This document shows, in pieces, positions 7,801-63,735 of a DNA stretch of 64,000 bases (within the stretch, counting starts at the first letter, position 1; every line of letters begins with the position of its first letter). The DNA is taken from NCBI RefSeq assembly GCF_026155325.1, contig NZ_JAPFPW010000005.1, forward strand, positions 1 to 64,000, in the 5' to 3' direction. The position numbers and the translations under genes were made by a program. This stretch comes from Desulfobotulus pelophilus (lineage in GTDB: Bacteria; Desulfobacterota; Desulfobacteria; Desulfobacterales; ASO4-4). Under the pieces are notes generated by a model. It ran no database searches. It was not told the DNA's origin and saw only the letters and a program-made list of their open reading frames with translations.

Positions 7801-10800
7801 TGAATCATGTCTTCGGGGTAACCCGTATGGCGGGATACCAGCTCCGTGATGACAGGGATGGGGGATGCGCTGGCTGGAGATGTCGTGCTACTGGTTTTTT
7901 CCGGTACGGAAAGGGAGGCCGGAGAATGGTCTGTCAGAAGATCGGCAAAGGCCTGTAGGCTGCGGGCTTCGGCCAGTACTTCCGGTGCAAAACCGGCCAT
8001 GGCCGGGAAGTGTCCTTCCAGCTCCGAGAGAATTTCCACCCTTTTGATGGAGTCTATGCCCAGATCCGCTTCCAGATCCATGTCCGCCTGAATCATGTCT
8101 TCGGGATAACCCGTATGACGGGATACGGTGCTCACCAGAAGGGACAGAATGTTTTTTTCCTGCTGGCTGGAATTTTCCATGGTCTCAGGGGCTCTGGCTG
8201 CGGCTGCCTCAGGGACAGGTCGCGCCGGAACCGGGGGAGCCGGGGCGGGATCAGGTGAAAGATTTCTGGCCGGAGTTGAAAGATTCTCTGCAACAGGGGC
8301 AAGGCTTCCGGCTTCGGAAAAGGGTTTTTCAGGGTATTCCTGAAGGGAAAATCCTTCGCCCCTTCCCATGGAATGGACCAGTCTTTCCAGTGTGCGGCCC
8401 GCTTCGGACTGCAGGGATAAAAACTGTTCGTGGGCACGGGTGGTCTGTTCCTGAAGGGCTTTCAAGGTTTGGAAACCTTCCATCAGAACCCTTGAATCCA
8501 TGGGGGTACCTCGTTTCTGTAAAGTCTCAGTGGGTCTATGGGGGAGGGAATGCATGGCCACATCAACAGAATCTTGACGGGTGCCGGCCGGAGTTGTCGC
8601 AGCAGCAAGTTGTCGGGTGGATGCAGGTGCCACATCTGCAGAATTTGTATGGGCCTCTGCCGGGGTCTTTGCTGCTGGTTCAGGCCGGTGGATTGTTTCC
8701 CTGCTCCGGGCAGGGGCCAGATTCTCAGCGGAAAGGAGTCTGCTGTCAGCTGCCCGTAAAAGGGGCTTTTTTTCTGCGGCCTTTTTCCCCTGTTCCGGTT
8801 TGATATTGGCTCCGGAAAGCCAGATGGTCATCCGCCGCTCCGGGTTGGGCGGTGGCTCCGGGATGCCGGACCAGTCCACTCCATAGCCAAGGGCAGCCAG
8901 CTGGCAGAGAAGAATGAGAAGATCCATATCTCCTGAATTTTTTCCGGCGGAAGCATCCATGGCAAAACAATGCACGGATTCCTGTTCCAGAATGGCGGAA
9001 GCAAGGCCAGTGAGAACATTTTTAGGGCCTGTTTCCACAAAGGTGCGCACACCTTTATCATAAAGATATTTTATATTGCTGATGAAACGAACAGGAGAAA
9101 GGAGCTGGGAAGAAAGGGTCTGGCGGATGGCATCCCCATCCTTTTCATAGGCAAGGCCTGTGCCGTTGGCCATGACTTCCATGGAGGGAGCTTTGGGGGT
9201 GATGCCCTGCAGGGCCTCTGCAAAGGGTTTGGCCGCATCTTCCACAAGGGGGCTGTGGAAGGCGGCGGCAACGGGCAGCCTTATTCCCCTGATTTTGTGG
9301 CTCTTCAGCACCTTGGCCGCATGATCCAGAGCCTCTTTTCCACCGGAGAGCACGCACTGGGAAGGGCTGTTTTCATTGGCCAGCACCACATTCAGGTTTT
9401 CTTTTTCAATGAGGCTTTTCAGGGTTTCCACATCAGCCCGTACGGCCATCATTGCGCCCCGGTCCCTTGGGTCATCGGGGTCACCTGCCATGTAGCGGCC
9501 CCGGAGGACGGAAAGCTGCATGCATTCCGTTTCCTGAAACACACCGGCGCAGCAGAGGGCCGGGAGTTCTCCGTAACTGTGTCCGCATGTGGCATGGGGA
9601 CGGATGCCGAAACGTTCCAGTATGCGGGCCATGCCAAGGCTGACGCAGCCGATGGCGGGCTGGGCCAGATCCGTGGACCGCAGGGTTTCTTCCTCTTCTT
9701 TGCCCTCACCTGTAAAGGGATGGATAAAAGGGGAAAGGAGATGTTCTTTGCGGTGAGGGGCAGCGTATTCGGCCAGAGTGGCATTCCCCAGCTCAAGGCT
9801 TTCCAGCATTTCCGGGAAAATACAGGCAAGGCTTTTTCCCATGCCGGGATACTGGCTGCCCTGTCCGGGAAAGAGAAAGGCAAGTTTTCCGGGCGACTCC
9901 CCTTTGCCGAAAAAAATCTGGCCATGCTGGCCTTCCTTTTCTTCCCCGATAATGGCTCTGGCTTCTTTGATGGTACCTGCCATATCCCCATCTTTTTCCA
10001 GAAGGAGCAGCAGACGAAAGCTGTGGGCGGAGGAGAAATCTGATCGGGAACGGCGGCAGACTTCCTGCAGCATCCGGGGTTCCTTCAGTTCTGTTTTTTC
10101 CAGATCCGCAAGCTTGTGAAGAAGGGTATCCGTGTCTGGGCCGGAAACAGAGAAGATATCCGTATGAAAATCCCAGACCCATTCGTTTCGTTTTTTGCCA
10201 TATTCTTCCAGCACGGCATGGTAATCCGCTCCGCCAAAGCCAAAGGCACTGACCGCGGCCCGACGTGGGCGGTCTTTTTCTGTCGTCCATGGCATGGCTT
10301 GGGAAAGCATGCAAAAGCCGGAGGAGGGAATGTCCAGATCCGGATCCGGGGGAAGGTGTTTCAGTGCCGGGGGCAGCACCTTGTTATAAAGGCAGAGTAC
10401 GATTTTGATGAAACCAGCCATGCCCGCTGCGGCTTTGGTATGGCCGATGTTGGCCTTGACGGAGGAGAGAATGCAGGGCCTTGTGTCCCTTTCTTTGCCG
10501 TACACCGCCTGCAGGGCCTTGAATTCCACGGCGTCGCCCACACGGGTGCCGGTGCCGTGGGCTTCCACCAGATCCACGCTGGAGGGATGAAAGCCAGCCT
10601 CTTCACAGGCCTTTTCCAGGGCACGAATCTGACCTTCCGCTCCCGGTGCGTAGATGCTCTGGCTTCTGCCATCGCTGGCCGTACCCATGCCCTTGATGAC
10701 CGCATAGATACGGTCGCCATCTTTTTCGGCATCTTCAAGGCGTTTGAGAACGGCCATGCCCACGCCTTCTCCCAGTACGGTGCCGTCGGCCTTTTCGGAA

Positions 10801-11612: not shown

Positions 11613-13265
11613 TTAAGACATCATGGGTTCAAGGGTGTTAAGGCCCAGTGGTGAGAAATTGCCGATATGGGCCGGAATCTCCGGATACTGGGCTTTTAGC
11701 ATGGAGAAACGGGTAAGGGTGGCGGCTCCGGCCAGAAGATTGAAGGCCACGGTGCGGATGCGGCGTTCGGATACCTCCTCCAGAAAACTGTTTTTGGTCC
11801 AGGCATTGAAAGCACCCATGGCCGGGCCGCACCAGACCTGATAATCCACCTTGCGGTCCGGATTTCCCTGTATGGCCCAGAGGGAGGCCTGACCGAGATA
11901 GGAGCGGAAGAGCAGGGCCATGTGGTGGCGGGGATCTTCTTCGGCCCGTTTCAGCTGGGATGGATCCCGTTCCATGAAAAAGCGGCGGGTGGATTCCCAT
12001 TCCTCTGCTATGCTTTTCTGAAAGATCTTGTCTTCAAGGAAGCGGATGGCATCCTCCGGCAGGGCTTCCATGGAAGGATACTCCCTGTAAAGGGTGTAGA
12101 GTTTCTGCGCCCGTAAGGCAAACATGGTTTCCCTTTTCAGCACCTGCACCCTGCCACCCATCTCAAACATGTCCGCCGCAGCGGTCATGGTGACATCGGC
12201 CTGTCCGCAGCGGGCCAGCATCTCCCGCACCGTATCTGAGGTGCCGGATTCCACGCAGGCCTGATGGACGGAGCCCACCAGTATATAATCCGCTCCCAGA
12301 GCAAAGGCCGCCGCCGCAGAAGCCGGAGTGGCAATGCCGCCCCCAAGACCCACGCAGGGGATGTGGACATACTCCCTTGCAGCCATGGCCGCATCCCTTG
12401 CCGCTTTGATGGCGGGAAGAAGGGCCATGGCCGGACGGTTGTCCGTATGTCCGCCGGAATCCGCTTCTGCCGTGATGTCATCGGCCATGGGAAGTAAGGC
12501 CCCGAGTCGGGCTTCATCTTCACTTAGCAGCCCTTGGCTGAGCAGTTGCGTAAGAATTTTCTCCGGAGGGGGCGCAAGGAATTTTTCAGCAATTTCCACC
12601 CTGGAAACCTTGGCTATGATGCGGTTTTTCGGCAGGGGACGGCCCTTTTCATCCGCCGTGACGCCCCTTACCCTGTACAGAACAATGGCCGGGGTCATGC
12701 GCATGAAGGCGGCGGCACAGACGCTGGTGATGCCGGATTTTAGATAAAGTTCCGCAAGGGCCATTTCCCCTTCCGGGGAGCCGGGCTGGTGCAGAAAATT
12801 AAAGCCAAAGGGAAAGGGGCTGGATTCTGCCGCTTTTTTCAGGGTGGCAATGGCCTTTTCAATGCGGGCAAGGGTGCAGCCGCCAGCCCCGAAAAAGCCC
12901 ATGCCTCCGGCCCGGCCCGCTTCCATCACCATGGCTTCCGATGTGATGCCGTTGGCCATGGCTCCTGCTATGTAGGGGTATTTCAATCCGTGTCGCCGGA
13001 GAAAATCCCGGCTGCCGAGGTTTTCAGGCGGAAGGGGGGGAACAAAGGCAAGAAGAGGCAGTGCGTTTTCACCGGAAAGGACACCTCCCAGAATCGCCTG
13101 CCCGTATGTGCGGAGCTGGGGTTTGCCGTTTTCTCCCAGCACAAGAAAAAGGGGACTGCGCAAGGCGAGCAGTGCCGTTTTTGGATCGTTTGTCTCAGGA
13201 AAGGCTTTATCAGAAGGGCCGGGTTGCCACCAGCCCATGGAAGAATTTGTCATATCTGTTGTCAT
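11613..13265 (-). CDS. pfaD: PfaD-like FMN-dependent trans enoyl reductase
   Basis: A 550-residue TIM-barrel protein of the 2-nitropropane dioxygenase-like PfaD family. Visible features are PYIAGAMANGITSEAMVMEAGRAG (given in part), GGMGFFGAGG, the substrate-side DITAEADSGGHTDNRP and the FMN phosphate-binding VGLGGGIATPASAAAAFALGAD. PfaD enzymes act in trans on acyl chains held by PUFA or polyketide synthases. It is the first gene of the pfaD-pfaA-hydrolase operon; the length is typical for PfaD. GNAT gene 41 bases upstream on the same strand may be co-transcribed. Confidence 0.9.
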   Translation of the reverse strand: MTTDMTNSSMGWWQPGPSDKAFPETNDPKTALLALRSPLFLVLGENGKPQLRTYGQAILGGVLSGENALPLLAFVPPLPPENLGSRDFLRRHGLKYPYIAGAMANGITSEAMVMEAGRAGGMGFFGAGGCTLARIEKAIATLKKAAESSPFPFGFNFLHQPGSPEGEMALAELYLKSGITSVCAAAFMRMTPAIVLYRVRGVTADEKGRPLPKNRIIAKVSRVEIAEKFLAPPPEKILTQLLSQGLLSEDEARLGALLPMADDITAEADSGGHTDNRPAMALLPAIKAARDAAMAAREYVHIPCVGLGGGIATPASAAAAFALGADYILVGSVHQACVESGTSDTVREMLARCGQADVTMTAAADMFEMGGRVQVLKRETMFALRAQKLYTLYREYPSMEALPEDAIRFLEDKIFQKSIAEEWESTRRFFMERDPSQLKRAEEDPRHHMALLFRSYLGQASLWAIQGNPDRKVDYQVWCGPAMGAFNAWTKNSFLEEVSERRIRTVAFNLLAGAATLTRFSMLKAQYPEIPAHIGNFSPLGLNTLEPMMS

Positions 13266-14764: not shown

Positions 14765-15876
14765 TGCGGCAGAAATTCCTCCACAGTGGTGCTGTTGAGA
14801 ACTTCCGGCCCGTCTTTACGGACCACCACCATGTTCTCGAGGCGGATGCCACCCCATTCAGGAAGGTAAATCCCCGGCTCTATCGTTACCACCATGCCGC
14901 TTTTCAGGGGGATATCCTGCATGGGGCTGAGCCTTGGAGCTTCGTGGATGGCAAGGCCCACACCATGGCCTAGACCGTGGCCGAAGAAATCTCCATATCC
15001 CTTTTCCTTGATGTAATCCCTTGCCAGTGAGTCAATTTCCTTTGTACTCACACCCTCGCGGATGGCGGCCGTGGCCCTTTCCTGAGCGGTTTTCACCACG
15101 TCAAAAATTTCCATGAAGCGTCCATCGGGTTTGTCCAGAAAAAAGGTGCGGGTGATGTCGGAGCAGTATCCTTTGAGTTTGATGCCCCAGTCAAAGAGAA
15201 CGGGTGCTCTGGTGGTGAAAAGATGATCCGAGGGATGGGCGTGGGGTTTGGCAGTATTCACTCCGCAGGCAACTATGCTGGGAAAGGAAAGGCCTTCTGC
15301 ACCCATTTCCCGGAGTTTTTTCTCAAGGAGCCAGGCTGCTTCTTTCTCGCTCATGCCCGGTACAAGGGATGGAAGCAGATTTTGTAAGGCCTGTTCCGTA
15401 ATGGCAAGTGCCCGGCGAATGATGTCAATTTCTTCTTCATCCTTGATGATGCGCAAGGACTCCACCAGATCGCTGATCGGAGCCAGTTTTACGGAGGATC
15501 CCGACGCATCGAGAGATTGCTTCATCCGTTCATGGTCTTTCACGGAAAGTTTTGCCGGTTCAAATCCCAGAATCTGGGTATTCAACTGTGCCAGAATATC
15601 GGGTAGTTCTGCAGCCAGGCCTTTTTTATAGCCGTAAATATCATAGCCCGGGGCTTCGGTTTTGGCCTGAAAGACAAAGCGGGAGTCCGTGGCCAGAAGG
15701 AGTTTGTTTTGGGTGATGAAAAGTACACCGGAAGACTCATCATAGCCGTTGTCTTCGCCGGTGAAACCGCTGAGGTAACGCCGGTTTTCTTCCACAAGAA
15801 CCATCATGGTGTCTATGCCATGATCTGCCATGCGGTTGCGAAAAGTCTCTATTCGTGAGGAAAGGGAAGGATTCAA
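14761..15876 (-). CDS. M24 metallopeptidase, Xaa-Pro aminopeptidase-like
   Basis: A 371-residue creatinase/aminopeptidase-fold protein: N-terminal creatinase-like domain (~5-135) and a pita-bread catalytic domain. Metal ligands are visible as two Asp in FDWGIKLKGYCSDITRTF, His in GHGLGHGVGLAIHEAP, and two Glu in TIEPGIYLP and IRLENMVVV. It probably removes N-terminal residues before proline or cleaves Xaa-Pro dipeptides (PepP/PepQ type). The 3' end overlaps xerD by four bases, so the two form an operon. Confidence 0.88.
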   Translation of the reverse strand: MNPSLSSRIETFRNRMADHGIDTMMVLVEENRRYLSGFTGEDNGYDESSGVLFITQNKLLLATDSRFVFQAKTEAPGYDIYGYKKGLAAELPDILAQLNTQILGFEPAKLSVKDHERMKQSLDASGSSVKLAPISDLVESLRIIKDEEEIDIIRRALAITEQALQNLLPSLVPGMSEKEAAWLLEKKLREMGAEGLSFPSIVACGVNTAKPHAHPSDHLFTTRAPVLFDWGIKLKGYCSDITRTFFLDKPDGRFMEIFDVVKTAQERATAAIREGVSTKEIDSLARDYIKEKGYGDFFGHGLGHGVGLAIHEAPRLSPMQDIPLKSGMVVTIEPGIYLPEWGGIRLENMVVVRKDGPEVLNSTTVEEFLPQ

Positions 15877-50533: not shown

Positions 50534-50690
50534 TGGTTCTGTTTTCCCGACTGCTGCGATGATATAGTACCTACCGTTCATCAGGCTGAGCGAATCTTTA
50601 TGGTTCGCCATAGCCGGGTGCAGGGGAGCCCTTTATCATGGCAGCAGGCCTGGTTTGCTGTCTGTATACCGGATAAACCAGGAGCTATGC

Positions 50691-52271
50691 ATGTCTATCC
50701 AGCTAGAACTAATTGATTTTATAAAAAAAACCCTTCCAGTTGAAGCCGATGACCCCAAGGCAGGTAAAGAAAGCGAACCTCTGTCTCCATCCGGTTTCGG
50801 ATCGGATGTCAGCCGGGCTGTTCATTCCGCTCTGATCCTTCGACCCATCTTTGAGCTGGAAGCCCGTCGTTTCGGTCAGGGTGAAGAAGAACTCAGCGGC
50901 GAGATCTGGATGCGGGTTGATCTGATGTGGACGGCATTTGCCATTCTCGATGTCATCTCAGAGCTGACCGAATACCAGATCGGTGTCACCCGCAGTGAAG
51001 TAACGCAAAAAATCCTTCCCCTCCTCCGTCAGCAGGTTGCTGCAGAAAACAGATTTTTCCCCGATGAAGCCCTTGAAGAAGTAAGCTCTAAAATTTTTGA
51101 CCATCTCACAAACAGAAACAACCGCTACCTTCCCTTTTCCTGTCCCTTTTTTGATGCCGATGCAGGACGCTACCGCACCCGCCGCTTCTGGCTCATCAAA
51201 AATGTCTATACGGGCGAAGGCAGCGAGGCCCTGTTCGCCCTCACGGAAGAAGGCTACACAGCCTATTTCGGCCTGCACGAAACCAGTGCCCTGGATGCTG
51301 CTGCCATCGGCAACCTGCGCATCAAGCTGCTCATTGAAAGGGGCAATCTGGATGATGCCATTGCCGTGGCCGAAACCAACCGAAGGCATTGCGCCCGAAA
51401 GGCAGGAGAAGTGAGAACGGTGCGCCGCCAGATCAGCCGGAACATCAAGTCCGTGGGTTTTGACCGGGTTCAGGCCCTGGCCGAAGAGGGTGTCAATCAG
51501 GTCATGGATATCCAGAAGGAAGGCAACCGTCTGCACAACCTTGTCATCGAAAACCTGCATGGCGGCGGATACAGGGGCCACAGCAGCACCCTTTACAGGC
51601 TGGCCGACAAGCTTGAAGGCTTAAGTAACCAGCTGATGAAGCTTTCTGGCCAGCTCCAGAGCCTGCCCGAAGACTACCAGAAACACAGCCACAAACTTTT
51701 CAGAAAAGAAGCCAGCGGCGTATTTCCCGGCATGGATGAGGTCATGGAAAGGATTTTTTCTCTGGATGAGGAAAACGCCGCCCGCATGGGGAAGGAATTC
51801 ATCGCCCGCATAAATCCTCCGGCACAAAGGCCTCTTTTTGATCCGGCATCGGTGATGGAAGCCTGTGAACGCGCCCTGGAGCGCAGGAATCCGCCGGGCG
51901 ATCAGACCCAGGTGCTCCTGGAGGTGGACGGCGAACCCCTTATATGCTTTCAGCCGGAACTGAATGAGAAAGTAATGCAGCAGGCCTTTCACCTGATCCA
52001 TCATCTCCTTGGCCGCAAAAAAGAGCTGAGACTGGGGCAGGTTCTGGAACAGGCCCTGACGGAGTCCGATGAAAGCCTTTTCCCCGTTGCAACGGCCATG
52101 GCCGTTTTTCAGTGCCTTGTGGAAAAACGCATTGCAGACAGATACGGCATCCATGTGGACATGCCCGACCCGCAAAGCCGCATCACCATGGATCTCGGAA
52201 GCGGAAGACGCTACCGGGGCCATGAACTGCGGCTGAGGCAGCGGGTTCTTTCCGGCAACCCAAGGGAATAA
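50691..52271 (+). CDS. jetA: Wadjet-like JetA (kleisin/MukF-like subunit)
   Basis: A 526-residue protein starting at ATG 50691 (CCAGGAG site). Assignment rests on operon order and shape: an N-terminal helical/winged-helix region (RAVHSALILRPIFELEAR, DLMWTAFAILDVISEL), a middle with ALTEEGYTAYFG, a long helical arm (RNIKSVGFDRVQALAEEGVN), and a C-terminal winged-helix-like part. In Wadjet/MksBEFG systems this subunit bridges the SMC heads. Cannot separate JetA from MksF by eye. The downstream jetB is separated by 400 bases, which hold palindrome copy B. Confidence 0.72.
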   Translation: MSIQLELIDFIKKTLPVEADDPKAGKESEPLSPSGFGSDVSRAVHSALILRPIFELEARRFGQGEEELSGEIWMRVDLMWTAFAILDVISELTEYQIGVTRSEVTQKILPLLRQQVAAENRFFPDEALEEVSSKIFDHLTNRNNRYLPFSCPFFDADAGRYRTRRFWLIKNVYTGEGSEALFALTEEGYTAYFGLHETSALDAAAIGNLRIKLLIERGNLDDAIAVAETNRRHCARKAGEVRTVRRQISRNIKSVGFDRVQALAEEGVNQVMDIQKEGNRLHNLVIENLHGGGYRGHSSTLYRLADKLEGLSNQLMKLSGQLQSLPEDYQKHSHKLFRKEASGVFPGMDEVMERIFSLDEENAARMGKEFIARINPPAQRPLFDPASVMEACERALERRNPPGDQTQVLLEVDGEPLICFQPELNEKVMQQAFHLIHHLLGRKKELRLGQVLEQALTESDESLFPVATAMAVFQCLVEKRIADRYGIHVDMPDPQSRITMDLGSGRRYRGHELRLRQRVLSGNPRE

Positions 52272-52672: not shown

Positions 52673-53467
52673 ATGGAACACCATACAGAATCCTTTCATG
52701 GGGCCAGCCGCCTGATTTATTTAAGCCTCCTATACAGCAGCGGCAGCCGCAGGGCCATGGCCCCCTTCAGTGCCGAGATGGCCGAACTCATCCAGCGTTT
52801 TCAGTCCCAGGACAGCTTCCGCCAGATGGTGGAAACGGGCCTGAAGGCCATGGAGCTGAGGCTCCTTGCCCTGGAAGACAAGGGCCTTCGCCTTTCCGCC
52901 CGTCGCTCGGACAGTTTTTTTGCAGCCACCCTCACGGATTACGGAAAACTCCTTGCCAGAAGCGACCTCAAGGCAGCGGAAATCCTTCCCGTTCACTGCG
53001 CCATTGCCACGGCCTTTTTCCCGACGGAGGCGGATCTGGATGCTCCGGTGGAAGACCTCGGTGCCATTGTCATCATGGATGTCATGGATATCCTGAAACG
53101 CTTTGCCCTTGCAGAATCCGCCCTGCCCGATGGAGAAACAAGGCTGCATCCCCAGGTGAAGAGCGTTGCGGAACGCCTTCGCCTTCTGCCCGAAGACAAT
53201 CCGGACAGACAAAGGGCGGGCAGCGGTTCAAGCTGGGTGGAAATGATTGCCATCGTACTGGATCACATGGTGGAAACGGGCTATCTGCTGGCCTTTGAAG
53301 AAACACCTGGGGAGGTGGAATACAGGCCGACGCCTGCCTATCAGACCGCCCTGAGGGAAGGTATTGTCTATGCTTTCCACGCCTTCCGGGATATTGTGAC
53401 CACCGCTCCCCTTCAGGAAAAAAAGACAGCCGGAAATGCGGCCGGGGAAGGGAAACCCCATGTTTAG
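52673..53467 (+). CDS. jetB: Wadjet-like JetB (KITE/MukE-like subunit)
   Basis: A 264-residue mostly helical protein with winged-helix character (ELIQRFQSQDSFRQMVETGL, LRLLALEDKGLRLS, then SSWVEMIAIVLDHMVETGYLL). This matches the small KITE-type subunit (DUF4194/MksE-like) of SMC-kleisin systems by position and look. The 3' end overlaps jetC by 8 bases, so the two are coupled. The start is uncertain: only AAGGG at a long distance precedes ATG 52673, and the ATG at 52757 (MAPFSAEM) is possible. Confidence 0.7.
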   Translation: MEHHTESFHGASRLIYLSLLYSSGSRRAMAPFSAEMAELIQRFQSQDSFRQMVETGLKAMELRLLALEDKGLRLSARRSDSFFAATLTDYGKLLARSDLKAAEILPVHCAIATAFFPTEADLDAPVEDLGAIVIMDVMDILKRFALAESALPDGETRLHPQVKSVAERLRLLPEDNPDRQRAGSGSSWVEMIAIVLDHMVETGYLLAFEETPGEVEYRPTPAYQTALREGIVYAFHAFRDIVTTAPLQEKKTAGNAAGEGKPHV

Positions 53468-56400
53468 ACTCAATAAATTCTTTGTAAGCGATATCAAGGC
53501 AGGGGACAATATTCTGCGCAATGGCTTTGTGCCCGTATTCCGGGAGGATGGGGATGCGGATCATGGTGTTCTTTTTGCTGCCAACGGCACCTGTAAAACC
53601 ACCCTCTTATCCTTTATCCTCAGCGTGTTCAGCCCATCCAGACAGCGCTTTGTGCAGCACCTGCAATCCGGCGGGGACAAGAGTCTGGACCAGTATCTGA
53701 TTCCCGGCCGTCCTGCCATCGTCATGCTGGACCTTGCCATGGTACTGCAACCCACCCTCTTTGAGACAAAACCCGTGGATCATCTGGTTTTGGGCCAGCT
53801 TCTCTATCGCCACAGCAACACGCCGGACAAAGTTGATCGCACTTTTTTTCTGGCCAGATCCGCTGATTTTTTTGACACCCTGCGCAGCCAGTGGGACGGA
53901 CTTCTCGATCAGGAAAAGCCCTATCAGGCCCTGAAGGATTTCATGGCTCCGCTTATCCAGCAGACCTCCAGCCAGAAGGAATGGGAGGAAACCCTGGAAG
54001 AGCTTGGGCTTGATCCCTGGCTCATTGACCGTCAGGTGGATTTTGCCCGTACGGAAGGGGGCATCAAGGATGCCTTCCGCTTTAAATCCGAAGGGGATTT
54101 TTTAAGTTTCTTCCTTGGCTGCGTGACGGATATGGAAGCTGCCAAAGAATTGCGCGAACGCATGGATCAGGACTTAAGCAAAATGAAGGACCGCCCGAGA
54201 AAACGGGCCCAGCTTGATGCCGTACGCAGCCTAAAGGAGCGCATCGCCGACTTTGACACCATCGCCGCCCTCTGGCGCAGTGCAGGAAAGGCCATTGAAA
54301 AATGGCGGATGCAACTGGGAGAGGCCAGCCATCTTCTCCATGGTGCAGAAGCTTCTTCCCGGACAGAGCTGGAAGAACTTGAAAATGAGCAGAAACATGC
54401 CGAAGACTCTTTGCGGACCCTTCGGACCGGACTGGAAACCACCCGGAGCAATATCCTTTATCTGGAGCACTTCTGCATATCCAGTGCCGTAGAAGAAGGA
54501 GAAAAAAGCCTCCACAGAAATCATGGGGAAAGCGAGGCGCTAAAGGCTGAAAAAAACGCCCTCCTTGCTGCGGACTTCATGGCGGATATCCGTAAAAATC
54601 AGGCCGAAGCGGACACAAAGGATAAGGCTCTCGCCGAAGCAGGCAAAGAAATCAATCCCTTGCAGGAAAAATTAAAAACCCTTGCGGCCCAGTACCATCT
54701 GCGTCTGGATGCAGACCGCCACGGACTGAAAGCCGCCATGGAAAATCTGTGCCGGGAAGAGGAAGAAAGAAAGCAGCATCAAAGGGCTGTGGAAAAAAAA
54801 CAGCAGGCAGGGGAAATCCTCAGGCAAGCCCTTGAAAAGGAGCTTGAGAATCTGAACGGTCGCATCCGGGGAGCCGAAGCTGGCCGTACCTTGCTGCCCC
54901 TTGATCCTGGAGAAGAACCCTCCGCCGCCCTGGACCGGCTCCATGGGGAAAAAGCGGGCTTTGAAAACCGCATCATTATGGTTGAAAAGGAAATGAGCGC
55001 CGGAGAAGAGGCCCTGAAGGCCCAGGATCGCAACTGGCGTCGTTTGCTGGAAGAGTGTTCAAAAGCACAGGGAAAACGCAGCGAATCCCTCAAAGCCATG
55101 GAAGAAGAAGCGGATTTACGGCGGCATCTTCTGGAAGATCCCCATCTTGTGCGCATTGCCGGAACCCGTGATATGGAAATCAGCTCGGCAGAGCTCCTTT
55201 CCCGGCTGGATGACACCCTGGTGCGCAGCGAGGAACGTCTCAGGAAAAAGGAAAGGCAGACCCTTCAGCTGGAAGAAAAGCTGGAAGCTCTGGATCAGGG
55301 AGGCGGCCTTGCCGCCGATGACCTTACCCGCCGCCTTCTTTCCTATTATCATAAAAAAGGCCATGAAAAGGGTATTGCCCCCGGAGAACTCAAGTCCTAT
55401 CCCGAATACCTTGCGGATCTCTACCCTGCGCCGGAAATCCTGGCCCGGTACATCGAAGGGGATCCGGCGCGGTTCACGGGCATGATGGCGGCCAGTCAGG
55501 ATGTCATTGAAAGCATCCTTGAGATGCCACCACCTCCCTGGCTGCACCGGCCCGTGGTGATTTCCACCCCCTGTGCTCCGGAGGCGGTCAGCACTGTGGA
55601 GCAGACCCTGATCCGCCCCCTGACGCCCGAGGTCTATTCCAGACAGCACATGGAAAAGGTGAGGGAAGAATACCAAAAAACGCTGGAAAAGGTGGCAGAG
55701 GAAAGGGAAGAAGCCCGGAGCCTCCTTAAAGCCATGGAAGGCGTAAGCCGCAATCTCCATGCCTATCAGGAGCGTTTTCCCGATGCCGGAGCTGTGGCCG
55801 CCCTCCGTGAACGGGCAGATGCGGGGGAGAAAAAACTTTCTGAAATCAAAGCTGCCATTGCTGAGGCTGAAGCGGGCATGGAAGCCCTCAGCCGCTCAAA
55901 AACAGATCTGGAATCCCGCTACCGCCATCTGAAAGACCAACTCGCAGACCTTTCTCGGATGCTCCAGCAGGTGAACACCTGGGTTTCATCCTTTGCGGAT
56001 CTGGCCGCATGGGAGGAGGAAAGGGAAAAAAAGACCCTTGAAAAAGGAGCCGTGGAAAAGGCCATCCGGGCGGATGGAAAGACCCTTACGGAACTCAAGG
56101 AAAAAGAACTCCGGATTTTTAAGGATATCCACATATGCAAATCCGATCTCAAAGGGCTGGACGAAAAGGCCTCTGAAATCATGCGGCCTGAGGATACGGA
56201 ACTGAAGACCGAAGAGCAGGAAGAAGCCCTGTCCATGGATCTTCAGACCCTGCTCCATCTTCATAGGGCCGCAAGGGAAACCCTGAGACAGATGAGCCAT
56301 ACGCTCGGTATAGACCATCTTGGCAGAGAGCTTGAAGATCTTCAGGCACGCATTGCAAGGCTTCAGTCCGAATTCGAGGCCTTTGGCCGCAGCCACAGCT

Positions 56401-57881
56401 TTGATGGAAAAAGTGCGGAAAACTGGGCCACGCGGGGCTTCAGGGATAGAAAGGCGTACCTTGAAAGCCTTTCCGGGAAACTGGAAGGGCTGAAGGAAAG
56501 CCGCATCCGCATGGAAACGGAACTGGAACACAAAAAAAAGGATCAAATCCGCAGCGAGGCCCTTCTTTCGGAACAAAAAGCCAAAGGTTTTCCCCAGGAT
56601 CTTAGGGAAGAAAACCTGAAGGATCAGGACACAGATGCGCTGCTGCATCGTCTGGAAAGCGAAAAAAGAAGGCAGCAGACCGACTGCGAAACCCTTTTTT
56701 CCCGCTCTGAGCGCCTCAAAGAGAAGCTCAGCTTCCTTGAAAAATGGCGTCAGGAACTTCGCATTGCCATGGCGGAAAACCAGACCTTTGAACCCCTCTG
56801 GGATCAGGATTCTCCCCGTCATCCATGGCCGGACCTGCTGGAGCCGGGCAGAGACAGGATGGCTTCCATCCGGCAACTGCTGGAAGAAATAAGGGAAATG
56901 GCCGCAGCCGAAAGAAAGGAGCGGGAAACCGGAGAAAACGCCCGCAGACGGATGCGCAGTGCCTTTGACCGTCTCCAGACCCACCTTCAGGATGATGCCT
57001 GCCGCCATGACCTCCCCGCTGTGGTGGATGCCCTGAGAAGCCACGATGCCGAATCCTTAGGGCTTCAGGCCGAAGACCTGATCCGGCGCTGCGAAGATAT
57101 CGCCCGTAACATTGAAATGGATCTGAAAATTACCCAGCGCTTCATGGACAGTCTTGTGGACAGGCTGCTGCAGCACAGCCGGGATTATCACCAGAAACTG
57201 CAATCCGCCGCAAGGGAGCTTCTTCCGGAGACCGTTTTCATTTACGGCGGAAAACCCATTCTTCGCACAGGTGTCCGACTGGATTTTGCCCGCTACCAGG
57301 ATGCCTTCCGCCAGTCTGTGGAAAACTGGCTTTATCAGCTCATGCAGCAGAACCGCCTGCCGGAAGTCAATCCAAAGGCAGGCAACGGCCTTGGCTCTGA
57401 GCTGCTTTATCAGCTTCTGGGGGCCGCATCGGGCCGGGAGAATTTCGGTATCCGCATGCTGAAATGCGATGACTCCGGCAGCACCTACGAGCCCGTGGGA
57501 AAGGATCTCGGTTCCGGAGGCGAAGCCCTCACCATTGCGGTCATGCTCTACACCCTGCTCATCTCCATGCGAAAAAAGCGCAACAGTGCTTCCGAAGGCA
57601 GAATTCCCGCATTCCTCATTCTGGACAATCCCTTAGGCGTCTGCAACCGCTCGGACTTTGTGGATGCCCAGCTCAAGGTGGCGGGAAACATGGGCCTTCA
57701 GTGCGTCTATTTCACCGGCATCCATGACCGGGAATCCTTAGAACTTTTTGAACTGCGCACAGCCATCCGCAAAGGGGATAAAAAACTTGAAATCGACGGT
57801 ATTTCCTATAACTGCCTTGAAGTCACGGAGCTGAATGTGGAAAAAACAAAGAGGCAGGTGAACCACCATCAAGCCCCCTGA
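53460..57881 (+). CDS. jetC: Wadjet-like JetC, SMC/MukB-type ATPase with long coiled coil
   Basis: A 1473-residue SMC-like protein starting MFRLNKFFV at ATG 53460. Head halves flank ~1200 residues of charged heptad coiled coil. The Walker A is AANGTCKTT (residues 40-48): the lysine is kept, but the usual Gly before it is Cys and the first Gly is Ala. The ABC signature is SGGEALTIA (~1353) and the Walker B is FLILDNPLG (~1383), with Asn where the catalytic Glu normally follows Asp. Type I JetC is nearer 1100 residues, so this is a long, divergent member. Predicted to load on and extrude DNA with JetA/JetB. Confidence 0.78.
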   Translation: MFRLNKFFVSDIKAGDNILRNGFVPVFREDGDADHGVLFAANGTCKTTLLSFILSVFSPSRQRFVQHLQSGGDKSLDQYLIPGRPAIVMLDLAMVLQPTLFETKPVDHLVLGQLLYRHSNTPDKVDRTFFLARSADFFDTLRSQWDGLLDQEKPYQALKDFMAPLIQQTSSQKEWEETLEELGLDPWLIDRQVDFARTEGGIKDAFRFKSEGDFLSFFLGCVTDMEAAKELRERMDQDLSKMKDRPRKRAQLDAVRSLKERIADFDTIAALWRSAGKAIEKWRMQLGEASHLLHGAEASSRTELEELENEQKHAEDSLRTLRTGLETTRSNILYLEHFCISSAVEEGEKSLHRNHGESEALKAEKNALLAADFMADIRKNQAEADTKDKALAEAGKEINPLQEKLKTLAAQYHLRLDADRHGLKAAMENLCREEEERKQHQRAVEKKQQAGEILRQALEKELENLNGRIRGAEAGRTLLPLDPGEEPSAALDRLHGEKAGFENRIIMVEKEMSAGEEALKAQDRNWRRLLEECSKAQGKRSESLKAMEEEADLRRHLLEDPHLVRIAGTRDMEISSAELLSRLDDTLVRSEERLRKKERQTLQLEEKLEALDQGGGLAADDLTRRLLSYYHKKGHEKGIAPGELKSYPEYLADLYPAPEILARYIEGDPARFTGMMAASQDVIESILEMPPPPWLHRPVVISTPCAPEAVSTVEQTLIRPLTPEVYSRQHMEKVREEYQKTLEKVAEEREEARSLLKAMEGVSRNLHAYQERFPDAGAVAALRERADAGEKKLSEIKAAIAEAEAGMEALSRSKTDLESRYRHLKDQLADLSRMLQQVNTWVSSFADLAAWEEEREKKTLEKGAVEKAIRADGKTLTELKEKELRIFKDIHICKSDLKGLDEKASEIMRPEDTELKTEEQEEALSMDLQTLLHLHRAARETLRQMSHTLGIDHLGRELEDLQARIARLQSEFEAFGRSHSFDGKSAENWATRGFRDRKAYLESLSGKLEGLKESRIRMETELEHKKKDQIRSEALLSEQKAKGFPQDLREENLKDQDTDALLHRLESEKRRQQTDCETLFSRSERLKEKLSFLEKWRQELRIAMAENQTFEPLWDQDSPRHPWPDLLEPGRDRMASIRQLLEEIREMAAAERKERETGENARRRMRSAFDRLQTHLQDDACRHDLPAVVDALRSHDAESLGLQAEDLIRRCEDIARNIEMDLKITQRFMDSLVDRLLQHSRDYHQKLQSAARELLPETVFIYGGKPILRTGVRLDFARYQDAFRQSVENWLYQLMQQNRLPEVNPKAGNGLGSELLYQLLGAASGRENFGIRMLKCDDSGSTYEPVGKDLGSGGEALTIAVMLYTLLISMRKKRNSASEGRIPAFLILDNPLGVCNRSDFVDAQLKVAGNMGLQCVYFTGIHDRESLELFELRTAIRKGDKKLEIDGISYNCLEVTELNVEKTKRQVNHHQAP

Positions 57882-58097
57882 AAAAATAAAAGCCGTACTG
57901 GCTGCAGGAGACAAGGGGCTGGATCTGCTGATATACTCTGGGTGGTCATTCTTGATACATGGGGCAGTCTTGAAACGATATGAAAAAGTTCTTGACCCGT
58001 GTGTTTGAAATTTTCGAATGTTTCACGGTTGACCGCTTGGAGTAAAATAAAGATATACTGGAAAAACTGCTTTTCCTCACCACAAAAGGTGCAAGCC

Positions 58098-59849
58098 ATG
58101 AAAAAAAGAATCCTCTACGGCGAAGCCAATTATCCAGCCATTGTTCGTGAAAACGGCTACTTTGTGGACAAGACTGCCTACATCGAAAAACTGGAATTCG
58201 TTAAAAATCCCGTCTTTCTGCGTCCAAGGCGTTTTGGAAAATCCCTTCTCTGCACCATGCTGGAGTCCTACTATTCGGTTTTATACAAAGAAAACTTTGA
58301 AGAGCTTTTCGGCCACACATGGATTGGCAAAAACCCAACGCCCCTGCACAATACTTTGCTTGTGCTGCATCTGGATTTTTCCACCATTGAGACCGGTGAG
58401 CTGGAATTAATGGAAAAAAGTTTTGATCACACAGTGAACCTTGCCCTTCAATCCCTGGTGAACAGAAACATCTGTTTTTTAGAGGATAAGCCGCTGCTGA
58501 ATCCGGAAAACAGCTCCGTATCCAATCTCAAGGCCGTTATCAATAAGATCCAGGACAACAAGCTACCGCCCCTCTATGTCATCATCGATGAGTACGACAA
58601 TTTTGCCAACCAGCTCATCACAGGCCATAAAGACCTTCTTTATAAGCAGCTCATGGCCGATGACGGTTTTTTAAAAACCTTTTTCAAGCTTTTAAAAGAG
58701 GGCCGAAAAACCGGAACCATCCACAATGTTTTCATCACAGGCGTTCTGCCCGTCACCATGGATGAACTGGCTTCGGGCTTCAACATTGCCACCTTCATCA
58801 CCCTGAACCCCAATTTTGAAAACATGATCGGCTTCACCCAGTCCGAAGTGAATTTACTTCTCGATGACATTTACAGAGATTATGAAATCCGCCCGGATAC
58901 CCGCAATGAAGTACAGGATGTCATTAAAAATCAGTATAATGGCTATCATTTTATCGATCCTGAAGGCGAGGCCGTCTATAACTCCACCATTCTTCAATAT
59001 TTTCTGAGCTGGTTCTGTGAATTTAAAACCATGCCCAAACACTTAACGGACATGAACCTCAAAACCGATATCCTGTGGATCAAAAGAATCACCGGCTCCA
59101 ACCCTGAGCTTACCCAGGATTTTGTCACCCAGCTGACAACCCAGAACAGCATTGACTATGACGACACCCTGCTCACCCAGAAATTCAACATGTCCCGTTT
59201 TTTTGAAAAGAGCTTTTTTCCCATCTCCTTTTTTTATCTGGGGATGCTTACCCGAAAAAATGACTTTGCCCTAACTCTCCCCAACCTCAACATGAGAAGA
59301 ATCTTTGTGGAATACTTCAATGAACTCCACCACATTGACGTTTCCACCCGCTACGGGAACATGATGCAGCATTTTGTCAGAACCCTTGACCTGAAATCTC
59401 TGTTTGCTGGCTACTGGCAGGAATACGTTTCCCAACTTCCCGAAGCGGTCTTTTCCCAGGTAAACGAGAACTTCTATCGCACCACCTTCTATGAACTCTG
59501 TTCCCGCTATCTTTCCCGCTGGTTCACCTGGAATGTGGAAAGGTCCTACCCCAAGGGCAGAACAGATCTGGAGTTTGTGGGCAAATTCAATGAATGCTTT
59601 GCGGGCATCCGTATGGTCATCGAGTTCAAATACTTTTCCAATGCCGCCTTTAAAAAATTCAATACCAGCATTGAAAACTTCACCCTGATTCCTGAAGATA
59701 CGGAGCAGATGGCAGGCTATGTGGAAGGGCTTAAAAAGGAATACCCGGAAGCAAAGATCAGCCAGCATGTGATTTACTGTTTTGGCAATGGGGGATTCAG
59801 GGTATTTGATACGGACCCCCTTCCGGCATCAAATGAACCGGTAAGCTGA
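58098..59849 (+). CDS. AAA-ATPase-like protein with C-terminal PD-(D/E)XK nuclease domain
   Basis: A 583-residue protein of the AAA-ATPase_like + DUF1703 family, common in horizontally moved regions. N-terminal NGYFVDKTAYIEKL, then P-loop RPRRFGKSL (~45), Walker B-like VIIDEYDNF, VFITGVLPVT sensor region; the C-terminal nuclease-like part holds RTDLEFVG and MVIEFKYFS (D...ExK). Start at ATG 58098; an upstream frame extension from 57999 is not supported. Its presence between jetC and jetD suggests insertion; a role in the defence locus is only inferred. Confidence 0.85.
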   Translation: MKKRILYGEANYPAIVRENGYFVDKTAYIEKLEFVKNPVFLRPRRFGKSLLCTMLESYYSVLYKENFEELFGHTWIGKNPTPLHNTLLVLHLDFSTIETGELELMEKSFDHTVNLALQSLVNRNICFLEDKPLLNPENSSVSNLKAVINKIQDNKLPPLYVIIDEYDNFANQLITGHKDLLYKQLMADDGFLKTFFKLLKEGRKTGTIHNVFITGVLPVTMDELASGFNIATFITLNPNFENMIGFTQSEVNLLLDDIYRDYEIRPDTRNEVQDVIKNQYNGYHFIDPEGEAVYNSTILQYFLSWFCEFKTMPKHLTDMNLKTDILWIKRITGSNPELTQDFVTQLTTQNSIDYDDTLLTQKFNMSRFFEKSFFPISFFYLGMLTRKNDFALTLPNLNMRRIFVEYFNELHHIDVSTRYGNMMQHFVRTLDLKSLFAGYWQEYVSQLPEAVFSQVNENFYRTTFYELCSRYLSRWFTWNVERSYPKGRTDLEFVGKFNECFAGIRMVIEFKYFSNAAFKKFNTSIENFTLIPEDTEQMAGYVEGLKKEYPEAKISQHVIYCFGNGGFRVFDTDPLPASNEPVS

Positions 59850-60036: not shown

Positions 60037-61161
60037 ATGAAGGAGTGCATGACATATAAATCCGGAAAATTCATTTTCCAGGAAAAATATGACTCTCAAA
60101 TAATAAGGGAGCTGTTTATCAGGGCAATGGTTCTGAATGAAACCATTGCAGAGCTGCCCGTTTTCTCCGGTCTGGCATCACGACTGGAACCAGAGATCAT
60201 GTACAGCTCCATTGCCGGGACCGCCGCCATCGAAGGCAACCCCATATCAGAAGCAGATGTCAGAAAAATATCAGAAGGCCATGATCTTATTGATTATTCT
60301 GCCAAAGATCAGCAGGAGATCAAAAATCTTATTGAGGCCTATGATTATCTCTCTGAGAAAAAAATCATCTCTCAGCCTTTTCTGATCAGCGAACAGCTCA
60401 TCCGGAATCTGCATAAAATCATTACCACTAATGTGCCCCATGAATACAACATACCTGGCAATTACCGAAACGGAAGGGTGGAAGTCGGTGACAAAGCCCA
60501 TGGCGGCGTATACAGGCCTCCCAAATGCCTGGATGACGTCAGCCTGCTGATGGCTGCCTTCACAGAATGGATGAACAGCCATGAAATACTGGAATTGCCC
60601 CCCCTCATAAGGGCACCCCTTGCACACTATTATTTATGTGCCATCCATCCCTTCTGGGACGGAAACGGAAGAACAGCCCGACTGCTGGAAGCCCTTATCT
60701 TGCAAACTGGCAAGCTGCAATACATACCCGGAGAATTATCAAACTATTATTACAGAAATATAGACAATTATTATAGTGCTTTTTCAAAAACAAACAAACT
60801 CGGAAACGATGCCACTCCTTTTTTAGAATTTTTTCTGGATGCTGCCATATTTTCCATGGAAAAAATTAAAAAAATAATAATTTCTTCCATAAAAATCTTT
60901 GCATTAAAAGATCATTACACAGACCAGAACCAGAAAAAAGAGATAAACAAAAGGCATTTTGAGCTGCTGACTCTTCTTCTCGATTATCCACCTGATTTTG
61001 TCTTTTGTATAAAAGATCTCATATCAAAAATGCCCTTCAGGCTTCTCTACAGCAGTATCAGCAGCCAGACAGCCCGAAGAGACCTCGCCAAATTATCAGA
61101 AATGGGGCTTCTCCTGAATAATAACGGTGAATACTCACTGAATTTTCGCTTTTCCGGGTAA
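60037..61161 (+). CDS. Fic-family AMP-transferase
   Basis: A 374-residue Fic protein: the active motif HPFWDGNGRTAR (H204) is intact. An N-terminal inhibitory helix motif TAAIEGN (E66) makes it a class II, self-inhibited Fic. An N-terminal Fic_N-like segment and a C-terminal winged-helix (~300-370, SSQTARRDLAKLSEMGLL) complete the common DUF4172-less architecture. Transfers AMP to target hydroxyls. AT-richer than its neighbours, with different codon use, suggesting recent arrival. Confidence 0.9.
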   Translation: MKECMTYKSGKFIFQEKYDSQIIRELFIRAMVLNETIAELPVFSGLASRLEPEIMYSSIAGTAAIEGNPISEADVRKISEGHDLIDYSAKDQQEIKNLIEAYDYLSEKKIISQPFLISEQLIRNLHKIITTNVPHEYNIPGNYRNGRVEVGDKAHGGVYRPPKCLDDVSLLMAAFTEWMNSHEILELPPLIRAPLAHYYLCAIHPFWDGNGRTARLLEALILQTGKLQYIPGELSNYYYRNIDNYYSAFSKTNKLGNDATPFLEFFLDAAIFSMEKIKKIIISSIKIFALKDHYTDQNQKKEINKRHFELLTLLLDYPPDFVFCIKDLISKMPFRLLYSSISSQTARRDLAKLSEMGLLLNNNGEYSLNFRFSG

Positions 61162-61277
61162 AATACCCAAAGGTCTTTTTTGGATTATTCTGCCAGCAGA
61201 AAAACACTTTTTTTCACCCCACCAATAGATTTCGATTGATTGTCAATTGAATTTGGCAAAGAAGCCGTAAAAAAATT

Positions 61278-61353
61278 TCCCACGGTATTTCCTATAACTG
61301 CCTCGAAATCACGGAGCTGAATGTGGAAAAAACAAAAAGACAGATAAACCATG
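61278..61353 (+). pseudogene. Remnant copy of the jetC 3' end
   Basis: Encodes GISYNCLEITELNVEKTKRQINHG followed by TGA (given here as GISYNCLE-ITELNVEK-TKRQINHG). The jetC end at ~57799-57867 encodes the same with Val for both Ile and HH for HG. The six or so base differences are silent or conservative, so it derives from a related jetC under selection and not from recent copying. The TGA overlaps the ATG of the next gene. Upstream homology fades at 61268-61280. Confidence 0.8.
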
Positions 61354-62064
61354 GGTGATATCATCTGTTCATGGAAGGTCTGTCTGCCTGGAGGTAAGTC
61401 CCTTGTCTGGCCCGATGGCTGCCGGGATCTGATTGCCATTCTTCCGAAAAATCAGGCTCCAGAGCTTATCTGCAGCGGGCTGGATGCCTCTCCGAGAATT
61501 GTGACCTGCCCGGAGGAAACCCGTTTTGTGGGCATCCGGCTTGCGCCGGGCCTGACCTTCCCATGGGAAAAGGATGACCCCGGCTCAACGTGCAGGGATC
61601 TGTCCATCTCCCCATACCTGCCATCCTGGAAGGGTTTCTGTTTTGCAGCAGATCATGATGAAATTCAGAATGCACTTTTAGAGGTGGTATCGCTGGCAAA
61701 CCCTGCCCCCCATTGGATTGCAGACTACCTGGCTGAAGTGAGGGCAGGGGGAAAGAAAAGGGCCACGGCACGTAGTCAGCGAAGCATCAGGAGACAGCTG
61801 GTTCGGTTCACGGGAGCATCATCCAGCTACTGGAAGGGGCTGGCCCGGGTACGGAAGGCAGGATCTGCCATCGCCACCTCGGCCATCTCCCTGGCCGATA
61901 TTGCCGCAGACCACGGTTTTTCAGATCAGGCCCATCTGAACAGGGAGATCAGACGCTGGTTCGGCTGCACCCCCAACATGCTTCGTGTGAACAGGGAGCT
62001 GTCCGCAACCCGGCTGACAGCTCCCGATGCATTCCCCAATCCTCAGCCAAGAATATACTGCTGA
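61351..62064 (+). CDS. AraC-family regulator with DUF6597-like sensor domain
   Basis: A 237-residue protein. N-terminal sensor part: SLVWPDGCRDLIAIL and FVGIRLAPGLTFPW are typical of the short DUF6597-type domain. C-terminal AraC HTH: RSQRSIRRQLVRFTG, then SLADIAADHGFSDQAHLNREIRRWFGCTPN (shown in part). The usual ~20 residues before the DUF6597 core are missing, and the start lies inside a jetC-tail remnant, so its N-terminus may have been cut by the rearrangement. Probably regulates the adjacent divergent VOC gene, overlapping it at the 3' end. Confidence 0.8.
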   Translation: MGDIICSWKVCLPGGKSLVWPDGCRDLIAILPKNQAPELICSGLDASPRIVTCPEETRFVGIRLAPGLTFPWEKDDPGSTCRDLSISPYLPSWKGFCFAADHDEIQNALLEVVSLANPAPHWIADYLAEVRAGGKKRATARSQRSIRRQLVRFTGASSSYWKGLARVRKAGSAIATSAISLADIAADHGFSDQAHLNREIRRWFGCTPNMLRVNRELSATRLTAPDAFPNPQPRIYC

Positions 62065-62444
62065 AACTCCGCTGCCGGAGGGATGGGATGGTAGCAGTAA
62101 ACAAGGGCACCGGAGGGATCCAGAAGCCCGAAGCCCCTGTCTCCCCATGGATGATCTTCCAGAGGCATGATGACAGACAGACCCGCCTGATCATGCAGCC
62201 TCTCGTACATGGCATCGGCATCCGTCACAAGGACATTCAGAAAGATACCTCCGGTAAAAGGAACCATGCCTTCCTGGGGCTTCATAAGGCAGATTTCCGG
62301 CCCGGACGGGGAAGCTCCAAGGCGAAGCACCACGTACCAGCCGCAGTCGAAGGCCGGGCGGGCATCAAAGTGTGAGATATAAAATCCCTTTGTTTCTTCA
62401 AGATTTTGCGTGACAATGGTTGTGCTGACGGATTGAATTTCCAT
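62043..62444 (-). CDS. VOC-family (glyoxalase/bleomycin-resistance-like) protein
   Basis: A 133-residue VOC protein: two beta-alpha-beta-beta-beta units, e.g. VTQNLEETKGFYISHFDARPAF and NVLVTDADAMYERLHDQAGL (shown in part), with RGFGLLDPSGALVYCY at the end. The family covers dioxygenases, glyoxalases and antibiotic-binding proteins; function cannot be told. Start at ATG 62444 with GGAGG just upstream. AraC-VOC pairs are common and suggest stress or xenobiotic handling. Confidence 0.85.
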   Translation of the reverse strand: MEIQSVSTTIVTQNLEETKGFYISHFDARPAFDCGWYVVLRLGASPSGPEICLMKPQEGMVPFTGGIFLNVLVTDADAMYERLHDQAGLSVIMPLEDHPWGDRGFGLLDPSGALVYCYHPIPPAAEFQQYILG

Positions 62445-62664
62445 GTCTTCCTCCAAGGGTTCCTGTTTTCCTCAATACAAAACGCTGATGGGCAGAATAG
62501 CTCAATATATGTGGCAGAATCTTGAATTTTTTGGCCAAAAAACCAGCTGTTCTGACAGGAATGCCCCTATACCTTCATGGCAATGGCAGGCTTTCAGCCA
62601 AAAAAAAGCTTTTTTAGTTTCTGACCGACAAAGAACTCTAATAACCCGGCAAAGGATATTCTCC

Positions 62665-63735
62665 ATGGAAAACATCCTCCATGAAGCTGTTTGGGAAGTG
62701 ATACGATGCAGCAAACGCAAAAAGATTGAAACGGTCCTTCTGCTTGAAACCATCAGAAGAAAAGCCCCTTCATCCATAGGGGATTTCGAACTCCCAAAAC
62801 GCCTTTTTGATATCCTGAAAACCCTTGAAAAAGAAAAACTGCTGCAAATTCCCAAAACTAAATCTGATTACAAAACCGGCCTTCCCCCTTATGTCACCGC
62901 ATTACGACCGGAAGAAGATGCCGCCCTAATTCAAAAAAAGACAGAACTTTACAATTTACGCCACCTGACCGCCTGGGAACCCACATACATGGCAGCCTTT
63001 GCCTGTCATCTGAAAACAGAAAAAGAACTGAAACAGGCCATCAGGGTCAACGATTATCTCCTGAACCGAAAAACCGATACAAAGATCATCCCCCACAGGG
63101 AAAGGGCCTTACAGATCTTTGAAAGTGAAAAGGCCCTGGATGGCTATAGCCGCAAGGGACTTTTTGGTGGCAGAATCACCCTTGAAAATCTGGACTGCTT
63201 TTACTGCCCGGAACCCCTTCCCTTCCAAAGCCCCTCACCGGATAAGGCCCTTCTTTCAGGAAAACCCCTTCTGGTTGTGGAAAACGCCAATACTTACTGG
63301 AGCTGCTGCCAGGCCAATGGGGATATGTGCATTTATGCAGCAGTGGTATATGGCAAGGGTTTCACGGTATCGGCCAATGCAGGGGAATATGCCAATGACG
63401 GGCTGGAACAGATCAGAGCAGATCTTGAAGCCATGGAAATCCTCTATTTTGGAGACCTTGATCCCACAGGCATTGCCATTCCCACCCGAATCAATGCCAT
63501 GAGGAAAGAAAAGGGCCTTCTTCCACTTCGACCAGCCCTTTCCCTTTATAAGGCCCTCCTTGAAAAAAACCTCCCTACGCCCTATGACAGATCCCAGACC
63601 AAGGATCACGATCCCATGGCTGCCAAGCAATGGCTGGGGGTTGAACTGGCAGAAATTTATCTTGAAAAAGCAGAAATTCTTCGCTGGCCCCAGGAGGGGC
63701 TGACCTCTGATGATATCCGCAGGATTTCGGTTTAA
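62665..63735 (+). CDS. jetD: Wadjet-like JetD (TOPRIM nuclease subunit)
   Basis: A 356-residue protein. N-terminal helical/winged region (MENILHEAVWEVIR, GDFELPKRLFDIL), then a C-terminal TOPRIM-like domain (DUF2220 type) with LLVVENANT (E206) and YFGDLDPTGIAI (D264, D266), matching JetD, the nuclease that cleaves plasmid DNA in Wadjet. The frame is open from 62443, but its first 74 codons look non-coding; the ATG at 62665 has AAGGA upstream. It lies 4.8 kb after jetC, in the same direction, so the jet operon is split by an insertion of four genes. Confidence 0.78.
   Translation: MENILHEAVWEVIRCSKRKKIETVLLLETIRRKAPSSIGDFELPKRLFDILKTLEKEKLLQIPKTKSDYKTGLPPYVTALRPEEDAALIQKKTELYNLRHLTAWEPTYMAAFACHLKTEKELKQAIRVNDYLLNRKTDTKIIPHRERALQIFESEKALDGYSRKGLFGGRITLENLDCFYCPEPLPFQSPSPDKALLSGKPLLVVENANTYWSCCQANGDMCIYAAVVYGKGFTVSANAGEYANDGLEQIRADLEAMEILYFGDLDPTGIAIPTRINAMRKEKGLLPLRPALSLYKALLEKNLPTPYDRSQTKDHDPMAAKQWLGVELAEIYLEKAEILRWPQEGLTSDDIRRISV

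Follow-up and report, generated by a model that had tools for sequence, protein, structure and literature searches.

A 70-bp stretch of DNA lying in front of an AraC-like regulator gene in a Desulfobotulus genome repeats the end of the Wadjet gene jetC. The element to which it belongs (61281-61358) is probably the stranded native 3' end of jetC, displaced by passenger DNA, with one-sided recombination as the most likely route. Taken part by part, the repeat is very probably an insertion scar of an ancestral jetC-AraC junction, and the chances that one-sided recombination was the mechanism appear about even.

Gene Map of the Wadjet Locus

The window covers the first 64 kb of contig C5 in the Desulfobotulus genome under study (G000), and it was compared with D. 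alkaliphilus ASO4-4 (G001, NZ_VLLC01000007.1) and with a close sister of the window genome (G002), whose JetC is 98% identical to that of the window. Wadjet (JetABCD) is a plasmid-defence operon with the cleavage of circular plasmids as its defining activity, which is predicted for the locus here. Homologues of JetA, JetC and JetD occur together in the window, corresponding to the Wadjet of PADLOC group 3 (Table 1), while the putative jetB, without a match to the PADLOC or Pfam profiles, showed in tblastn 54-69% identity to the gene that intervenes between jetA and jetC in outgroup loci. jetC probably starts at an internal ATG (53460), its G002 orthologue beginning MFRLNKFF, and the likely start of jetD is the ATG at 62665. 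With the PADLOC JetC3 model applied across the phylum, the window genome alone gave a match at E <= 1e-60, and plasmids yielded no type III JetC.

All three Desulfobotulus genomes have an intact AraC-like gene. The window gene differs from that of G002 by 7 silent and 25 amino-acid-changing codons, an unusually high share of the latter, and this substitution pattern suggests relaxed or positive selection.

Table 1. Features of the Wadjet locus in the window.
Feature	Coordinates	Strand	Basis and remarks
jetA (Wadjet)	50655..52271	+	PADLOC JetA3 E=2e-30
jetB (putative)	52673..53467	+	Position, shared with its orthologues in other Wadjet loci (jetA on one side, jetC on the other)
jetC (JetC3)	53436..57881	+	PADLOC JetC3 E=2e-73
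Upstream repeat copy, 3' end of jetC	57796..57865	+	70-bp alignment with downstream copy
Rpn-like remnant (59 bp), from the C-terminal coding end of a dispersed gene	57875..57933	+	Supplies the present stop of jetC
MITE-like dispersed repeat (114 bp)	57938..58051	.	8-bp duplication GATATACT at 57930-57937 and 58052-58059
Cargo gene 1, AAA-ATPase_like and PDDEXK_9 nuclease domain protein	58098..59849	+	Pfam PF09820 E=7e-49, PF08011 E=5e-17
Cargo gene 2, Fic-domain protein	60037..61161	+	Pfam PF02661 E=2e-16; PADLOC SoFic E=2e-50
Probable stranded jetC tail (native 3' end), read in frame to the ancestral TGA 61356-61358	61281..61358	+	Repeat and comparison with D. alkaliphilus
AraC-like regulator	61351..62064	+	Pfam HTH_18 E=9e-14
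VOC/glyoxalase-fold protein, convergent with the AraC-like gene	62043..62456	-	Pfam PF00903 E=1e-8
jetD (JetD3)	62443..63735	+	PADLOC JetD3 E=5e-56, match from residue 81

Two Copies of the jetC End in the Window

The two copies form a direct repeat (57796-57865 and 61282-61351, spacing 3486) in which 64 of the 70 bases are identical (91%), the six differences falling in five codons, three of them silent and two exchanging V and I. The local alignment score of the pair is 110, against a maximum of 27 among 200 shuffles of the downstream sequence, and BLAST of the 64-kb window against itself returned the repeat with E = 2e-21 as the sole isolated direct repeat among the matches listed. The downstream copy stays in the jetC frame and reads HGISYNCLEITELNVEKTKRQINHG up to its stop, a TGA at 61356-61358 that overlaps the ATG of the AraC-like gene as ATGGGTGA. 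Its 70 bp are identical in the window and G002, and it has no evident start codon upstream. jetC itself lacks its native stop in the window and now ends in NHHQAP on the TGA 57879-57881, inside the Rpn-like remnant, and the native C-terminus of the window's JetC survives solely in the stranded copy; the D. alkaliphilus protein ends in KKQVNNG.

A first-pass annotation, made from the letters of the window alone, had reported a diverged copy of the jetC 3' end downstream of jetC, which the in-frame alignment bears out. It had located the copy at 61268-61353, the right site, but with a 5' end set slightly too far upstream, homology beginning at 61282, and with the stop that extends it to 61358 missed. 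Its argument that the silent and V/I changes betray a once functional gene proved weak: the pattern is mildly non-neutral (P = 0.019), but the corresponding copy in D. alkaliphilus carries a stop and three radical changes, and such mild constraint would equally be expected of a young or donor-derived pair.

The Rpn-like remnant that follows the upstream copy is 80-85% identical to gene ends reading PEKVKAVLAAGDKGLDLL in G001 and G002. Next to it, the MITE-like repeat is not at this place in G002, and many partial copies of it lie elsewhere in G001 and G002. Genes of the AAA-ATPase/PDDEXK_9 type number 15-16 in each of these two genomes, versus two in the window genome, one of them a fragment; on contig C2 of G002 they form a tandem array, alternating with another AAA gene. 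An AAA/PDDEXK_9 remnant on contig C4 of the window genome (L089, 5255-5632), between epimerase-like and AMP-ligase-like genes, lies where synteny with the sister genomes breaks and yielded no empty site. On contig C10 of G001 (L085), an Rpn-like remnant and two AAA genes lie between two copies (118 bp, 96%; 7524-7641 and 13029-13146) of a segment from within a dynamin-like GTPase gene, possibly an insertion scar of like kind; since this part of the genome has been rearranged in G002 and is missing from G000, the comparison gave no direction of change.

The jetC-AraC Junction in Desulfobotulus Relatives

In D. alkaliphilus (L020), the order of genes is intact jetC, about 120 bp of AraC head, a gene for a 1129-aa lipoprotein-like protein, AAA/PDDEXK_9, a second jetC tail, AraC, VOC and jetD. 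Here the repeat is longer, a 220-bp direct repeat (84%) that comprises jetC tail and AraC head. Its left copy (9727-9945) joins the intact jetC tail to the AraC head, a remnant that overlaps jetC and whose protein is no longer made, before the cargo intervenes, and its right copy (15542-15761) joins a broken jetC tail to the intact AraC gene. Each half-copy thus holds as a fragment what the other holds whole, from which it follows that the passenger genes entered the jetC-AraC junction and that the native tail was stranded; duplication of that junction also accounts for the position of the window's tail copy against the AraC start. The second tail of D. alkaliphilus, with its in-frame stop and radical changes (11 changes in 66 bp relative to its own jetC), is therefore a decaying stranded fragment and no maintained gene.

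Two further claims of the first-pass annotation were borne out by this locus: that the copy marks the original downstream boundary of jetC, and that the 57.9-61.3 kb segment is foreign, since jetC directly overlaps the AraC-head remnant and the second tail precedes the intact AraC gene. The same flanks enclose an orthologue of cargo gene 1 (89.5% DNA identity) in D. alkaliphilus; the Fic gene is not at this site there. An uninterrupted jetC-AraC junction was not found in any Desulfobotulus genome examined, and for this reason the ancestral order is reconstructed from the two half-copies; of the undisturbed junctions that the annotation proposed to look for in relatives, jetC beside jetD was met in outgroups, but jetC directly followed by AraC was not met in Desulfobotulus.

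In G002, jetC is truncated slightly earlier, ending GQKTVTEPKTP, with a longer Rpn-like end behind it. The Wadjet locus of this genome is split by an IS630-type element (L019 9545-10640, L083), jetABC and jetD being on separate contigs. A tree of the AAA copies unites those at the jet loci of G000 and G002, places extra G002 copies nested beside them and leaves D. alkaliphilus outside. This topology fits vertical descent at the jet locus after an insertion that would predate the species split, although recombination among copies blurs it. The left and right tail copies are too short for a tree, one site grouping them by position and one by species.

Comparable Insertions in Other Wadjet Loci

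Among outgroups, the closest Wadjet loci (G255, G261, G279 and G375, with JetC about 50% identical) have jetC abutting or overlapping jetD, and everything between the two genes in Desulfobotulus is therefore inserted, the AraC/VOC pair having come earlier. A similar AraC/VOC pair occurs elsewhere in the order (G083). The jetC-jetD interval has thus acquired genes more than once.

Two genomes of genus g82 (G297 and G298) repeat the last 38 bp of jetC 3.5 kb downstream, and between the tails lies a candidate defence cassette of two minus-strand genes, the larger matching PADLOC PDC-M28. In their sisters without the cassette (G280 and G369), jetC is directly followed by a hipB leader; the right-hand tail copy of G297 and G298 continues into that leader in the same way and is therefore again the native tail, left stranded. 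Between G297 and G298 the cassette shows about 99% identity, against 6-11% difference in the outer jetC and downstream flanks; divergence runs at about 12% across jetC, 5-7% at its end and 0-1% within the cassette. Near-identity between diverged flanks shows that loci recently exchanged the cassette as one block. In G362 the gene concerned is jetD: 75 bp of its end are found both before and after GNAT and LysE-like genes, the right copy preceding a helicase gene that immediately follows jetD in the sister genome G279. The G362 JetD (L152 1176-2348, reverse complement coordinates) seems to carry a GNAT acetyltransferase domain fused to its C-terminus.

The anatomy of 3'-end displacement, namely an intact upstream gene with its old 3' end left downstream of the new genes, by the old neighbour, is thus found in the window, D. 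alkaliphilus, g82 and G362. Desulfobotulus, g82 and G362 represent three independent cases at two Wadjet genes, jetC and jetD. A scan of the genome contigs for the tail pattern gave nothing outside the window genome.

Discussion

In the ancestor of the known Desulfobotulus genomes, jetC would have overlapped the AraC-like gene via ATGGGTGA. Passenger DNA, comprising the AAA-ATPase/PD-(D/E)XK gene, an Rpn-like gene and later the Fic gene, would then have entered between jetC and AraC, the locus of D. alkaliphilus additionally gaining the large lipoprotein gene. Entry is proposed to have duplicated the junction, leaving on the left the whole jetC with an AraC-head fragment and on the right a jetC-tail fragment with the whole AraC gene. 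In later decay, the window and G002 lost the left AraC head together with the stop of jetC, which now ends in other sequence, and the right jetC tail of D. alkaliphilus carries a stop codon. The mechanism proposed is homology-facilitated illegitimate recombination (HFIR) with 3'-end displacement, in which donor DNA carrying a jetC end and the cargo would have undergone a homologous crossover inside jetC and an illegitimate joint just upstream of the native tail. Once established, cassettes can pass from strain to strain when ordinary homologous recombination takes place in jetC and in the gene downstream. One-sided recombination explains why the tail alone is duplicated, why the repeat varies in length and why an integrase is absent. 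No donor DNA with a jetC tail and the cargo was identified for Desulfobotulus, and any microhomology at the joints is masked by the age of the scar. The further claim of the first-pass annotation, that the segment was acquired by recombination between homologous Wadjet loci, was partly right, by analogy with the g82 cassette and its contrast to the flanks.

The main rival to one-sided recombination is duplication in situ, in which passenger DNA arrives at a staggered break or through template switching and 38-220 bp of the recipient's own target are duplicated with no donor jetC involved. We consider it possible but rather unlikely, even though a staggered-break insertion with a long target duplication would leave the same anatomy. 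Several observations speak for it, namely that (i) repeat lengths vary (38, 70-75 and 220 bp) and the cargo differs, (ii) the left copy in G362 has no stop and runs straight into the GNAT gene, a fusion that resembles a direct join more than a donor tail ending on a stop of its own, (iii) the 220-bp repeat of D. alkaliphilus spans the junction symmetrically and is about equally well accommodated, (iv) the 118-bp repeat flanking AAA genes in G001 derives from an unrelated GTPase gene, and (v) an Rpn-like remnant is present at this locus, Rpn nucleases having been proposed as promoters of joining by primer-template switching (PMC5350276). Nonetheless, an unusually long duplication would be required every time, and the g82 cassette is an actual exchange between species with homologous flanks. 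Under either mechanism, selection may have acted as a filter, because with overlapping genes only those insertions that duplicate the junction keep both genes intact. The AAA-PDDEXK_9 gene was also considered as a mobile gene making long target duplications and rejected, as most of the approximately 30 other copies in G001 and G002 have no flanking repeat; the duplication is therefore not tied to this gene.

Retention of the downstream copy for a function, as a translational leader of the AraC-like gene or a small peptide, is improbable. It would agree with the 70 bp unchanged between the window and G002 and with the g82 tail, which after AAAGGA-ATG could encode a 14-aa peptide M(N/S)IKFETVHIHVEG (L148 ~4371-4415, L150 ~4430-4474), but not with the broken and diverged copy of D. 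alkaliphilus or with the missing start codon in the window. Even less credit can be given to a complete second jetC, from a tandem Wadjet duplication or a lost second locus, of which the tail alone would survive; loss of a second jetC was the first-pass annotation's other suggestion. The purely silent or V/I differences of the window pair would suit it, but no genome has more than the last 38-100 bp of jetC duplicated, duplication of a short tail and nothing more is seen again in unrelated lineages, the copy in D. alkaliphilus contains a stop as well as radical changes, and a search of the window genome and its sisters for a second gene gave one jetC per genome. The odds are equally slight for a site-specific integrative element that targets and restores the jetC 3' end, with the repeats as its attachment sites. 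The position of the repeats at gene 3' ends, with the gene rebuilt, would be as expected, but repeat lengths differ, one case concerns jetD and one includes 120 bp of AraC. Moreover, none of the three insertions has an integrase or recombinase gene between the repeats, the cargo consisting of AAA/PDDEXK_9, Fic, lipoprotein, PDC-M28-like, GNAT and LysE-like genes. A transposon or insertion sequence was dismissed, the window cargo having no transposase and the repeats, of 38 to 220 bp, not being of the fixed and short kind.

The insertion scar at jetC shows how passengers can enter a tightly packed defence operon and leave the operon unbroken. It has a detectable signature, the last 12-30 codons of a gene stranded before its former neighbour, which permits a genome-wide search for insertions in overlapping operon genes and for loci that trade defence genes by recombination. 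It also calls for caution, as genes found between jetC and jetD are not necessarily Wadjet components. More tentatively, and with the balance somewhat against it, the 3' ends of Wadjet genes might be a recurrent docking slot, where passengers related to defence or otherwise enter with duplication of the gene end and where the two-sided homology so created then permits cassette swaps between strains.

No report of a stranded-tail scar at Wadjet loci was found in a limited open-access search of the literature. One-sided recombination with displacement of 3' ends, the best mechanism for the Wadjet case, is known from Rhs and type VI secretion (T6SS) loci. In the T6SS of Vibrio cholerae, new effector modules enter beside a conserved gene and the old 3' end is shifted back as a fragment, for which the authors propose homology-facilitated illegitimate recombination (PMC5361080). 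The likeness to jetC lies in the old 3' end left as a displaced fragment; C-terminal domains change and immunity genes pile up in the T6SS loci, whereas at the jetC locus the JetC protein stays nearly the same and the gain is limited to passenger genes. As far as the account of Rhs loci cited in PMC5361080 goes, displaced ends there likewise persist downstream as orphan fragments, but the Rhs tails are variable toxin domains, whereas the jetC tail is the conserved end of an SMC-like ATPase. HFIR (PMC3240628 and references in PMC5361080) shares with the jetC case one homologous anchor, one illegitimate joint and the gain of foreign DNA, although here it is read from an old scar. Finally, the window resembles the PADLOC group of JetA3, JetC3 and JetD3 in having jetA, a putative jetB and jetC in order with jetD downstream, and departs from the outgroups, where jetC and jetD are adjacent, in that AraC, VOC and the cargo genes separate the two.
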